Source: Achromobacter deleyi (GTDB lineage Bacteria; Pseudomonadota; Gammaproteobacteria; Burkholderiales; Burkholderiaceae_B). Taken from it: a DNA stretch of 64,000 bases. Under the pieces are notes generated by a model. The model did no database searches, was not told the DNA's origin, and saw only the letters and a program-made list of their open reading frames with translations. A program made the position numbers and the translations under genes. The first letter of the stretch is position 1. Each line of letters starts with the position of its first letter. Below are positions 8,677-39,988 of this stretch, piece after piece. The stretch spans positions 2,418,001 to 2,482,000 of the forward strand of contig NZ_CP065997.1 in the NCBI RefSeq assembly GCF_016127315.1, read 5' to 3'.

Positions 8677-8774
8677 GCGGCCGCCTCGCGGGGGCCGGCC
8701 CGCGGCCTCGGATCGAGGCCGCGGATCAACAACGGAACTGCGTTTCGCGGTATGCTTTCGGCGCTGTCACGCAT

Positions 8775-9012
8775 GTTGCGGGAGAGAGCGGCCGTCCGCG
8801 GCCGCCGCCGAAGGCGCAATTCGCCCAGAATCGCTCAGGTATCCCATACCGCGCATGTTTGCCCTGTCCCGGTTTTTACCGCGCGGACGCGGCAAAGCAG
8901 CACTCTGGAGAGACCTGGCGCCGCTGCCCAAATAGGGACATAGCGCGCAGCCCAGGCGCCGAAGGTGCAAACCCGCCACGCGGGGCAACTCTCAGGCAAA
9001 AGGACAGAGGGG
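8775..9012 (+). ncRNA. Tandem glycine riboswitch
   Basis: Two glycine aptamers lie head to tail upstream of gcvT. Aptamer 1 has GGAGAG (8781-8786), GCCGAAGG (8807-8814) and CTCAGGT (8834-8840). Aptamer 2 has CTCTGGAGAG (8903-8912), GCCGAAGG (8958-8965), CTCAGGCAAAAGGACAGAG ending near 9009, and a P1 helix CTCTG/CAGAG. The second aptamer has an extra stem of about 35 bases between its conserved blocks. Downstream, CTGTCC (9043-9048) can pair with GGACAG (9002-9007) of aptamer 2, a possible expression platform. Glycine binding usually turns gcv operons on. Confidence 0.93.
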
Positions 9013-9100
9013 CGGAAAATTCAGCCGTTGCGCGGGCGTTTCCTGTCCGCCGGCGGCATTCCGTAACCCTGGCCCCGCTGCCGCTCCGGAGTACCCGCGC

Positions 9101-34818: not shown

Positions 34819-34931
34819 TTGTCAGTCCTTGTGCTTGAGCGCAGTCAATGGCTGATGATACCCGTTGCGTACAATTCCGCTTGAGAGCCCCGCCCCGCAT
34901 CAGGGGTGTGCGGCCAATCCAGGAGCCGTCC

Positions 34932-35609
34932 ATGTCCCCCACCTTGTCCCAATCCGGTCCCGCCGCCTTCCTGCGCCGCTCGAATCCGCTGGATGCGCTG
35001 TTGGCGGAAGCCGACCGGGCGCTGCGCGTGCTGTCCGGCAACGCCAGCGCCGGCCGCGCCAATCCGGCCACGGCCGAAGAGGCGCCGGACACCCTGTCGG
35101 CGCAGGAAAAGCGCCACGCGGCCGGACTGATGCGGGTCAACCACGTGGGCGAAGTCTGCGCCCAGGCGCTGTACCGCGGGCAGGCGGCGGTGTGCCGCGA
35201 ACCCGGCCCGCGCGCCCTGTTGCTCGAGGCCGCCGGCGAGGAGGTCGACCACCTGGTGTGGTGCAACCAGCGCCTGACCGAGCTGGGCAGCCGTCCCAGC
35301 CTGCTCAACCCGGTCTGGTATGCGGGCTCGTTCGCGCTGGGCCTGCTGGCCGGCTATGCGGGCGCGCCGCGCAACCTGGGCTTCATGGCCGAAACCGAAA
35401 AGCAGGTCGAGGCGCACCTGGAAGGGCACCTGCGCACCCTGCCCGAGCAGGACGCCCGCTCGCGCCAGATCGTGCGGAAGATGAAGGAAGACGAAGCGCA
35501 GCACCGCGCCAGCGCCGAGGCCGCCGGTGGCGTGCCGCTACCCGGTCCGGTCAAGGCCGCGATGCGGGCGATGTCCAAGGTCATGACGACGACCGCTTAC
35601 TGGGTCTGA
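34932..35609 (+). CDS. coq7: Ubiquinone biosynthesis hydroxylase Coq7
   Basis: A 225-residue di-iron monooxygenase for the penultimate, C6-hydroxylation step of ubiquinone synthesis. The carboxylate/histidine ligands appear as [44 protein letters not shown] and [13 protein letters not shown]. It replaces the flavin enzyme UbiF of E. coli, as is common in betaproteobacteria. The ATG at 34932 with AGGAG upstream is preferred to earlier in-frame starts. No terminator follows directly. Confidence 0.95.
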
Positions 35610-35912
35610 CCGCGGGGCCCGGCGTCGGGGGCGGGCGGTGGCCAGCCCCGGCATGCCTGCCCATGGGGCATGAAAATGTTGCAATGCGCAAAAATTGCAG
35701 CATATTGGTGCCGCATGCACCTTTCCGGTGCAAGGAATAGGGCGGGAATACCCGGAACCAGCTAGGGTAAGTCCGCAAGGGGTTTACCCCTTCGGCAATA
35801 ACCCTCCGTTTTTGCAGGTCATTGCTACATGCGGCTTTGCGGGCGGTGGCCGCAGGGATTGCGGCAAAAATGCAACGCGAAATGCTGCGGTGCGTTGGGC
35901 CTAAAAAAATTC
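35610..35912. other. Hairpin-rich intergenic stretch upstream of the candidate sRNA
   Basis: No credible gene. Several inverted repeats stand out: TGCACC-TTTCC-GGTGCA (35716-35732) and a 10-bp stem CCG(C)AAGGGGT-TT-ACCCCTTCGG (35773-35795). Repeated TTGCA/TGCAA motifs occur at 35679-35699 and 35868-35873. A weak promoter-like pair, TTGCAA (35679-35684) and CATATT (35701-35706), has 16 bases between. These could be regulator sites or a second structured RNA. Confidence 0.4.
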
Positions 35913-35941
35913 TTGCATCGCACAAAAAAACCCGATACTAT
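35913..35941 (+). promoter_or_regulatory. sigma-70 promoter of the candidate sRNA
   Basis: TTGCAT (-35, 35913-35918) and TACTAT (-10, 35936-35941) are separated by exactly 17 bases, predicting a start at about 35948-35949. The spacer is A-rich. Confidence 0.75.
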
Positions 35942-35948
35942 GCATCTC

Positions 35949-36115
35949 ATCGGATGTTGAAACGCAGTCGGCGCGGTTCAAAAGCAAAACCCAAGCAACA
36001 CTGAACCCCGACAGCGCAGCGAGCGAAAGCGGCTCCCAACATGCCACGGTTGTCTCCTCCACCCTCCTCCTTTGGTGGATTTAGCCCGAGATCTCACGAT
36101 CTCGGGCTTTTTTTT
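35949..36115 (+). ncRNA. Candidate small RNA with an anti-Shine-Dalgarno hairpin loop
   Basis: This stretch of about 166 bases runs from a good promoter to a strong terminator and has no convincing reading frame. Predicted folds by eye: ATGTTG (35954-35959) with CAACAT (36037-36042) closing a long domain; inside it an 11-bp stem GTCGG..GGTTCA / TGAACCCCGAC (35967-36012) with a 21-base A-rich loop; then hairpin TCCACC / GGTGGA (36058-36079), whose ten-base loop is CTCCTCCTTT; then the terminator. CCTCCTTT is identical to the 3' end of 16S rRNA, so the loop can pair with Shine-Dalgarno sequences. I do not recognise it as 6S RNA, tmRNA or another named RNA. Confidence 0.7.
36083..36115 (+). terminator. 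Intrinsic terminator of the candidate sRNA
   Basis: A perfect 11-bp stem (AGCCCGAGATC / GATCTCGGGCT, loop TCAC) runs directly into eight T residues, as strong as any in the window. Confidence 0.95.
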
Positions 36116-36472: not shown

Positions 36473-37576
36473 GTGACCTGGCTGTACATATGCGTGGTCG
36501 CGTTCATGGTGGGGGGACTCATCGTGGCGTCGGAGCGCTGGCATGGCGCCTTCACCGGCGACAGCGATCTCAACAAACCGCAAGCGAACCATTCGCGCGC
36601 CACGCCTCGCGTGGGCGGACTGGCCGTGCTGGCGGGCACGCTCATGGGCCTCTTGGTGCTCGGGCCCGAAAACATGACCCTGACCTGGCTGTGGCCGGCG
36701 CTGTTCGTGTCGGCGCTGCCCGTGTTCGTGGCCGGCCTGCTCGAAGACATCACCAAGGACATCGGCGCCAGCAAGCGCCTGCTGGCGGCCTTCGCGTCGG
36801 CCGCGATCGCCTGGTGGCTGCTGGGCGGCGTCAGCCGCGTCGGCATGGCCCCGGTGGATTACGTCCTGTCGTACTGGCCCGTCTCCCTGATCTTCACCAT
36901 GTTCGCGGTCGGTGGCTGTACCCACGCCCTGAACATCGTCGATGGCATGAATGGCCTGGCCGGCATGGTCGCGACGCTGATGGCCGTGTCCATCAGCCTG
37001 GTGGCGCTGCAGGTGGGCGACGTGCCGATCTTCCTGGTGGCGGCGGCGCTGGCTTCGGCCACGCTGGGCTTCCTGGTCTGGAACTTCCCGTTCGGCCGCG
37101 TCTTCCTGGGCGATGGCGGCGCGTATTTCCTGGGCTTCATGCTGGCCGAGCTGGCGGTGCTGCTGGTGGTGCGCAACCCCTCGGTGTCGCCGTTCTACGC
37201 GCTGGCGGTGTTGTTCTACCCCGTCTTCGAAACCGGCTTTTCCATCTGGCGCCGCCGCTTCAAGCGCGGCGTGCCGGTGGACCAGCCGGATGCCTTGCAC
37301 CTGCACCAGCTGGTGTTCCGCCGCCTGGTGCGCGTGACCTTCAGCCGCGGCCGTCGCCATGCGGTGCCGGCGCTGTGCAACGCCCTGGCGTCGCCATACA
37401 TGTGGGTGCTGGCCCTGATCGGCCTGGTGCCCGCCACCATCTGGTGGGACAACGCCTGGGCGCTCAGCGCCAGCCTGGTGGTGTTCGCCAGCGTCTATAT
37501 CTGGCTGTACGCGCGACTGGTGTCGTGGCGCCGTCCGGGGTGGCTGCTGTTGCCGTCCGTCCTGCGAGCCGATTAA
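36473..37576 (+). CDS. Polyprenyl-phosphate sugar-1-phosphate transferase (WecA/WbpL/MraY family)
   Basis: A 367-residue polytopic membrane protein with about ten helices. It transfers a sugar-1-phosphate from a UDP-sugar to undecaprenyl phosphate and so starts a surface glycan. Family motifs: TPRVGGLAVL (substrate loop), LLEDITKDIGASKR, NIVDGMNGLAG, FLGDGGAYFLGF and HLHQLVFRR. The likely donor is UDP-HexNAc (as for WbpL), fitting the sugar genes downstream. Translation starts at GTG 36473, with AGAGGTG upstream. It is the first gene of a rightward cluster running to 47864. Confidence 0.93.
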   Translation: MTWLYICVVAFMVGGLIVASERWHGAFTGDSDLNKPQANHSRATPRVGGLAVLAGTLMGLLVLGPENMTLTWLWPALFVSALPVFVAGLLEDITKDIGASKRLLAAFASAAIAWWLLGGVSRVGMAPVDYVLSYWPVSLIFTMFAVGGCTHALNIVDGMNGLAGMVATLMAVSISLVALQVGDVPIFLVAAALASATLGFLVWNFPFGRVFLGDGGAYFLGFMLAELAVLLVVRNPSVSPFYALAVLFYPVFETGFSIWRRRFKRGVPVDQPDALHLHQLVFRRLVRVTFSRGRRHAVPALCNALASPYMWVLALIGLVPATIWWDNAWALSASLVVFASVYIWLYARLVSWRRPGWLLLPSVLRAD

Positions 37577-38962: not shown

Positions 38963-39988
38963 ATGACCACACGCTTTGAATCCGTCACCCGGGAACTCGC
39001 GGCCGCGCCGCGCAAGTGGCTGGTGACCGGCTGCGCCGGCTTCATTGGCTCCAATCTGCTGGAGACCCTGCTGAAGCTGAACCAGACCGTCACCGGCCTG
39101 GACAACTTCGCCACCGGGCACCAGCGCAACCTGGACGAGGTGCAGGCCTCGGTCACGCCCGAGCAATGGGCGCGGCTGACCTTCATCGAGGGTGATATCC
39201 GTGATCTCGAGGCTTGCCGTCGAGCGGTTCAGGGCGTGGACTTCGTGCTGCACCAGGCGGCGCTGGGTTCGGTGCCGCGTTCATTGAAAGACCCGATCAC
39301 CACCAACGAGGTGAACATCGGCGGCTTCCTGAACATGCTGGTCGCCGCGCGCGACGCCGAGGTCAAGTCGTTCGTCTATGCGGCGTCCAGTTCGACCTAC
39401 GGTGATCATCCGGCCCTGCCGAAGGTCGAGGAGAACATCGGCAAGCCGCTGTCGCCCTACGCCGTCACCAAGTTCGTCAACGAGCTGTACGCCGACGTGT
39501 TCGCGCGTTCCTACGGCTTCGAGACCGTCGGCCTGCGCTATTTCAACGTGTTCGGCAAGCGCCAGGATCCCAACGGCGCCTATGCCGCGGTCATTCCCAA
39601 GTGGACCGCCGCGATGATCCAGGGCGAGGACGTCACCATCAACGGCGACGGCGAGACCAGCCGCGACTTCTGCTTCGTCGAGAACGCGGTGCAGGCCAAC
39701 ATCCTGGCCGCGACGGCGCCCGCCGAAGGCCGCAACCAGGTCTACAACGTGGCCGTCAGCGGCCGCAGCACGCTGAACCAGCTGTTCGGTTTCCTCGTGA
39801 AGGCGCTGGGCAACCAGGGCGTGAACTACGGCAAGCAGCCGGTCTACGCCGATTTCCGCGCGGGCGATGTGCGCCATTCGCAGGCGGACGTCAGCAAGGC
39901 CGGCCGCCTGCTGGGCTACGAGCCCACGCACACCGTGCTGCAGGGCCTGGAAGTGGCGATGCCCTGGTACACGCAATTCCTGCGTTGA
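38963..39988 (+). CDS. UDP-HexNAc 4-epimerase (TviC/WbpP type)
   Basis: A 341-residue extended short-chain dehydrogenase. The Rossmann motif is [10 protein letters not shown] (22-31), and the catalytic triad is Ser142-144 ([11 protein letters not shown]) and Tyr166/Lys170 (SPYAVTKF). [24 protein letters not shown] is the WbpP/TviC hallmark. It should interconvert gluco and galacto forms of UDP-HexNAc or its uronic acid. With the dehydrogenase 12 bases upstream, the pair makes UDP-GalNAcA as in the Vi antigen and Pseudomonas O6 pathways. Confidence 0.94.

Follow-up and report, generated by a model that had tools for sequence, protein, structure and literature searches.

The stretch of Achromobacter deleyi DNA analysed here (64,000 nucleotides, in the following the window) carries between a coq7-type gene and a glycosyltransferase gene a promoter and a terminator with no gene in between, which raises the question of what RNA is made there, which genes it acts on and what controls it. 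The answers concerning identity, conservation, helix covariation, operator statistics and start-site enrichment were obtained by computation. An earlier sequence-only reading had recognised the kind of RNA correctly; its views on novelty, on the key loop, on an A-rich loop and on the adjacent glycan operon have to be revised.

In Bordetella pertussis, the small RNA S17 is encoded between coq7 and a glycosyltransferase gene and starts at an A 7 bp downstream of the promoter TTGCAT-17-TACTAT. According to the available text on S17, RNase E shortens a 190-nt precursor to 67 nt, the RNA is Hfq-dependent and resembles the RF02278 RNAs, and a 27-nt core is conserved in Betaproteobacteria including Achromobacter xylosoxidans (PMC11722255). 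The window RNA matches the Rfam family RF02278 (Betaproteobacteria toxic small RNA) at 36051–36115 of the plus strand with 69.2 bits (cut-off 50, E 6.9e-12, model positions 1–64 of 64), and this is the single match in the whole 6.99-Mb genome. On the 5′ side the gene is flanked by COQ7 (34848–35609; PF03232, E 5.6e-43) and on the 3′ side by Glycos_transf_4 (36473–37576; PF00953, E 2.1e-29). Because of the RF02278 match, the same coq7-glycosyltransferase locus and the same promoter hexamers, the RNA is the Achromobacter orthologue of S17 and a member of RF02278. It is thus already described and not new, and the claim that no counterpart was described at such a coq7-polysaccharide locus therefore falls. 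Elsewhere in the window (8769–9017, plus strand) a tandem glycine riboswitch was found (RF00504 twice, 51.8 and 55.4 bits).

In covariance searches RF02278 scored over cut-off in all 43 genomes of the genus; of 300 genomes sampled across the order 114 reach the cut-off, or 188 when E 0.001 is the limit, and 14 control genomes gave no match. Public genomes contain the 28-base core without any change in at least 120 places. Among 164 fetched core-bearing loci, some of them present twice, 107 have a coq7 match, which lies upstream within 1.9 kb in all except L049; of the others, 39 show at least 1.2 kb upstream but no coq7 and 18 have less upstream sequence. The stretch TGTCTCCTCCACCCTCCTCCTTTGGTGG at 36051 is exactly kept in six Bordetella loci (L011, L019, L089, L094, L114 and L115), a comparison made with loci other than B. 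pertussis itself and not with the published letters of the 27-nt core. On the reverse strand of L082 (Pigmentiphaga sp. NML030171) there are two exact 28-base cores with a distance of 377 bases between them, and behind each of them comes a stem resembling a terminator, with a T run. The record name of L064 (titled Klebsiella pneumoniae MAG) is probably wrong; its core lies about 0.76 kb past a coq7 match which is 54% identical to that of the window. The name of L104 (Bordetella parapertussis MAG) is doubtful as well, since its core and upstream letters resemble those of the MAG loci L078, L080 and L112.

The promoter consists of a −35 element TTGCAT (35913–35918) and a −10 element TACTAT (35936–35941) with a spacer of 17, both on the plus strand and identical to those of S17. 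The predicted start is the A at 35949, 7 bases past the −10 element as mapped for S17, so that hexamers, spacer and start position all agree with those expected of an S17 orthologue. A scan for the sigma-70 consensus did not flag the promoter at 35913–35941, which has 7 of the 12 consensus bases by our own count. At the other end an intrinsic terminator (36083–36115, plus strand) is formed by an 11-pair stem at 36083–36108 and a T run; order-wide, 105 of 116 distinct cores have a stem of at least six pairs with a T tract, and the arms of these stems come in 77 different pairs. Promoter and terminator thus lie where the sequence-only reading had placed them, and together they predict an S17L-like primary transcript of 167 nt (35949–36115, plus strand), the fold of which is better than that of 200 out of 200 shuffles (z −3.58). 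The RNA shares with S17 the locus, the promoter hexamers, the spacer, the start position, the terminator and probably a core with two sites, Site 1 and Site 2, and differs in the length of the precursor (167 against 190 nt) and in a 32-residue ORF, which is not kept.

The RF02278 match itself corresponds to an S17S-like processed double-hairpin RNA of 65 nt (36051–36115, plus strand), the processing being expected from S17. Site 1, GTCTCCTCC (36052–36060, plus strand), is the complement of GGAGGAGAC, its first six bases are unpaired in the fold, and 103 of the 110 distinct cores from across the order have it unchanged; its function is deduced from S17. Then follows hairpin P1 (36058–36079, plus strand), a stem of six pairs (36058–36063 with 36074–36079) on top of which the ten-base loop CTCCTCCTTT (36064–36073, Site 2) is exposed in the last hairpin before the terminator, as had been noticed from the letters. 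The extraction of the sequences partly fixes the first four pairs of P1, and the sequences were chosen by a structure model, a choice biased towards pairing; the fifth pair is not imposed in this way, and it is formed in 109 of the 110 distinct cores although the base varies on either side (C-G 47, U-G 42, U-A 14, A-U 6). The loop contains an anti-Shine-Dalgarno sequence, CCTCCTTT, which is here taken to be the 3′ end of 16S rRNA; this end was absent from the 316 fetched loci, and one genome search, with a pattern whose first base was doubtful, gave no match.

In the leader a long-range helix, P0, is formed between a 5′ arm GGATGTTG (35952–35959) and a 3′ arm CAACATGCC with one bulged G (36037–36045), both on the plus strand; GGAUGUUG pairs with CAACAUGCC, ending five bases before the core. 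P0 was read in those 75 of the 164 core loci (67 distinct leaders) that fit the extraction pattern. Only the inner pairs are a test of pairing, because the three outer ones are largely set by the pattern itself, as is the spacing of 4 or 5 bases before the core. For the three inner pairs, 195 of 201 cells are paired, a result that not one of 5000 row shuffles reached; in such a test kinship among sequences can beat shuffles without structure. At the two variable inner pairs the compensatory combinations U-A/U-A, U-A/C-G, C-G/C-G, A-U/C-G and U-A/A-U occur. The leader helix thus covaries and ends just before the cut site expected from S17, a computational result which is new here.

The 21-base A-rich loop of the leader, for which binding of Hfq had been considered, does exist; in the predicted fold it is divided by a small stem, and it belongs to an insert found in only 6 of 31 leaders of the genus, with differing letters. 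In these six the distance from start to core is 101–111 nt, and in the other 25, lacking the insert, 78–83 nt. As a conserved Hfq site the loop was rejected, the insert being lineage-specific. That the transcript chiefly encodes a small protein is extremely unlikely. Such a reading could draw on a 32-residue ORF of S17L, mentioned as a feature and not as defining homologues in the available text of PMC11722255, yet this ORF is kept neither in the window nor in the relatives compared. The frame of the leader ATG has 16 amino acids in the window and between 7 and 85 in relatives, so that there is no conserved peptide; the changes in the leader preserve helix P0 instead, and the reading was rejected.

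Concerning the targets, S17 represses transport and catabolic genes by blocking their ribosome-binding sites; the repression of the tested target requires by mutation the single-stranded 5′ end, Site 1, and two of four further candidate targets showed no effect when tested, as far as the available text reports (PMC11722255). In the window RNA the corresponding free 5′ end UGUCUCC complements GGAGACA. The motif GGAGACA-N2-9-ATG occurs 188 times in the genome compared with 6 times for the backward pattern, and the twelve GGAGBNA heptamers together reach 503 compared with 246. Among the first 100 places listed (to 3.76 Mb), GGAGACA precedes 22 of the 55 TctC/Bug receptor genes of that stretch, where 1.6 are expected if about 6300 genes are assumed for the genome. 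On the plus strand up to 2.77 Mb, a TctC/Bug gene follows 8 of 27 GGAGACA places compared with 2 of 100 GGAGBNA places. This enrichment before TctC/Bug receptor genes is a computational result new here; shared descent of the sites is possible because Bug genes are paralogues. The first 30 GGAGACA places open 25 frames of at least 40 codons, while five do not. Eleven of the 25 encode solute-binding proteins (seven TctC, two Peripla_BP_6, one SBP_bac_8 and one SBP_bac_3), and the remaining 14 comprise two AMP-binding enzymes, two enoyl-CoA hydratases, an amidase, a dehydratase, a TauD dioxygenase, two FAD enzymes, an aminotransferase, a cupin, a LysR and an AsnC regulator and one protein without family. 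These classes agree with the published target classes of S17 (transporters, catabolism) and with the predicted targets of the Burkholderia RNAs.

Duplex energies calculated with RNAduplex turned out to be of little use as a target predictor, GGAGACA genes (mean −19.4 kcal/mol) being poorly separated from random windows (mean −15.8, 5th percentile −23.8 kcal/mol). The adjacent glycan operon, suggested earlier as a target, is not singled out, as the duplexes with the starts of its first three genes (−18.9, −14.7 and −20.0 kcal/mol) stay within the random range. An epimerase-type gene of this operon (PF01370) starts at 38963 behind AAGGAGGACG, in which AAGGAGGA matches the loop without mismatch over 8 complementary bases; the duplex, at −20.0 kcal/mol, falls in the random range.

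Pairing with Shine-Dalgarno regions, as had been proposed from the loop, is in keeping with the CU-rich unpaired stretches of the RNA, whereas the stretch proven by mutation in S17 is Site 1 at the 5′ end and not the loop. This bears also on the further suggestion of a global translational brake, in which the loop would titrate Shine-Dalgarno sequences non-selectively. The loop does complement the core Shine-Dalgarno sequence, RF02278 members are reported to be toxic in E. coli, and overexpressed ncS27 is reported to slow growth. Against this, the 5′ site matches the extended GGAGACA, which is concentrated at one gene class, and overexpression of S17S left the exponential growth of E. coli unimpaired, with Site 1 needed for the tested repression (PMC11722255, available text). 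A global brake is accordingly improbable. The unimpaired growth with S17S, in contrast to other RF02278 members (PMC11722255), was at the same time counted against the S17-type reading.

As to what controls the RNA, the S17 authors speculate on an unnamed repressor at the promoter (PMC11722255, available text). In the window the −35 element is overlapped by a predicted PhaR-type operator, TTCTTGCATCGCACAAA (35910–35926, plus strand), with one mismatch to the palindrome YTKNTGCRNYGCANMAR that has been deduced for the PhaR protein of Ralstonia eutropha (PMC12849132); the motif of Herbaspirillum PhbF is TG[N]TGC[N]3GCAA (PMC3206438). The genome encodes PhaR (PF07879, E 2.6e-30), and upstream of its one Phasin_2 match there are PhaR-type sites with 0 and 1 mismatch. 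A first motif, TTGCRNYGCAMAA, had four genomic places, of which the three besides S17 showed no phasin gene among the longest frames examined, and the link to phasin emerged only with the published PhaR motif. Around phaR, TGC-N3-GCA was found only once, within the gene itself, and phaR's own promoter showed no site. A single operator site proves little, because sites with at most one mismatch occur at 101 places in 7 Mb compared with 47 for the backward pattern.

Sites were also compared across relatives. Of the 155 loci with 230 nt upstream (some contigs are doubled, e.g. L107/L133, L023/L126 and L001/L180), 132 have a site with at most two mismatches, compared with 147 of the 3433 other windows of the same loci. 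Order-wide, when each genome is represented by a single RF02278 copy (107 genomes among the matches listed, out of 114 over cut-off), such a site is found within 250 nt upstream of RF02278 in 61 of 78 genomes with PhaR compared with 2 of 29 without (p 1e-11 if independent), where the best match anywhere in the 250 nt was taken and some two-mismatch matches lie off the promoter, and PhaR was called absent when PF07879 had no match in the genome. Since genomes are not independent, counts were also made by family (17 of 19 with PhaR compared with 1 of 10 without, p 5e-5) and by genus (42 of 56 compared with 1 of 15). Ten paralogue rows of PhaR-bearing genomes, kept apart, have the site in six cases. 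The prediction had been set beforehand, but one contrasting pair of loci (L162/L171) had already been seen.

In some PhaR-lacking loci (L203, L206, L219, L222 and others) the 90 nt before the RF02278 match contain a TATTAG..AT element, which in many cases forms an inverted repeat such as ATTAGATAATTCTAAT; it occurs in 23 of 29 PhaR-lacking and in 2 of 78 PhaR genomes and is perhaps a replaced operator for another regulator. In the Ralstonia-type loci L032, L035 and L106, whose copies have no PhaR-type promoter site, a long palindrome such as CATTACGAAATGCGATTTCGTAGTG lies upstream of the −35 element. A more degenerate palindrome of the same type is present in Cupriavidus loci, for example L013 and L103, again without a PhaR-type promoter site.

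It is conceivable, if rather doubtful, that PhaR is inactive at this promoter, TTGC-N3-GCA being a lineage-conserved core promoter whose absence from genomes without PhaR reflects ancestry. Genomes lacking PhaR do cluster in a few families with a different promoter, mostly one with the TATTAG..AT element, and sites with at most one mismatch are not rare. Counter-examples exist in both directions: two PhaR-bearing genomes (G130 and G331, family f43) have four mismatches each and no operator, and a PhaR-lacking one (G165, 85% complete) has an operator with one mismatch. C. necator is the model organism for PhaR, and still the promoter site is absent in 9 of the 10 loci examined from Cupriavidus and in all 4 from Ralstonia, which were scored for the site only. 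On the other hand, the association persists in the family-level counts, and contrasts are found within genera, with five mismatches in the genome without PhaR compared with one in the genome with PhaR in g5, and five compared with one and three in g14. Furthermore, 26 of 29 PhaR-lacking genomes contain TTGC within the final 160 nt, as would often be expected for four letters, whereas the GCA half follows it in only 4 of these 26 compared with 46 of 75 with PhaR.

PhaR would be a candidate for the repressor of S17, and the conserved, predicted PhaR-type operator in S17/RF02278 promoters is what looks new. In the open-licence papers listed, as judged from titles and the beginnings of abstracts and excluding the 2019 NcS27 and 2012 toxicity papers, no PhaR control of RF02278/S17 was found. 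The word PhaR does not occur in the available texts of PMC11722255, PMC5688073, PMC7011215 and PMC4603805, nor does PHB in that of PMC11722255. A common upstream motif mentioned in PMC5688073, as far as its available text goes, may be the same element.

Taken together, the locus very probably encodes an S17-type RNA whose 167-nt precursor gives rise to a 65-nt repressor of uptake and catabolic genes, with an operator suggesting control by PhaR. A sigma-70-type promoter would yield the precursor, from which RNase E, cutting just after the leader helix, would release the stable 65-nt double-hairpin RNA. With Hfq, the free 5′ end UGUCUCCUCC and the CUCCUCCUUU loop may then pair with GGAGGAGACA-like ribosome-binding sites, and this pairing would keep catabolic genes and the solute-binding proteins of transporters from being translated; that the RNA is processed, needs Hfq and acts as a repressor in this genome is expected by analogy with S17 of B. 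pertussis. PhaR on the −35 operator would keep transcription off, and PHB, whose granules would titrate PhaR away, would relieve the repression; stored carbon would therefore brake further uptake. The wider proposal, that the RF02278/S17 RNAs are the RNA arm of a betaproteobacterial PhaR regulon silencing GGAGACA-led Bug/TctC, ABC receptor and catabolic genes, with PhaR as the candidate S17 repressor and with PhaR-less lineages having swapped in the TATTAG..AT operator, is favoured with some reserve.

Several known RNAs resemble the one described here. The double-hairpin RNAs of Burkholderia cenocepacia are ncS03, ncS05, ncS27 and ncS62 (PMC5688073, PMC4603805). They share with it the double hairpin, the CU-rich unpaired stretches and predicted targeting of ribosome-binding sites, and ncS27 is reported to be processed as well; the A. 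deleyi genome has one RF02278 match compared with their four. In the available texts on the Burkholderia RNAs, the cause of their accumulation is called unknown and their levels are higher in glucose medium. In Sinorhizobium meliloti, PhaR (AniA) represses the sRNA MmgR (PMC12542648, PMC8401924, available texts), whose promoter likewise contains a palindrome of the TGC-N3-GCA type, as in the arrangement proposed here for PhaR. The two differ in family (the MmgR model RF00519 scores 17.3 bits here, cut-off 41) and in that MmgR acts on phasins, whereas the targets predicted here belong to uptake and catabolism. The NmsR RNAs of Neisseria have a similar layout with two CU-rich stretches; unlike the present RNA their copies are in tandem, and their model RF02877 reaches 35.6 bits here (cut-off 52). 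The SorX and SorY models (RF02784 and RF02651) stay below cut-off in the window RNA as well (21.6 against 46.6 and 22.5 against 111).

What stimulates the widespread RF02278/S17 family, a point left open in the papers examined, becomes testable through the predicted PhaR operator. If control by PhaR holds true, a sensor of the storage polymer would govern an RNA that limits nutrient uptake at the post-transcriptional level, paralleling PhaR and MmgR in rhizobia, and carbon storage would feed back on carbon intake.
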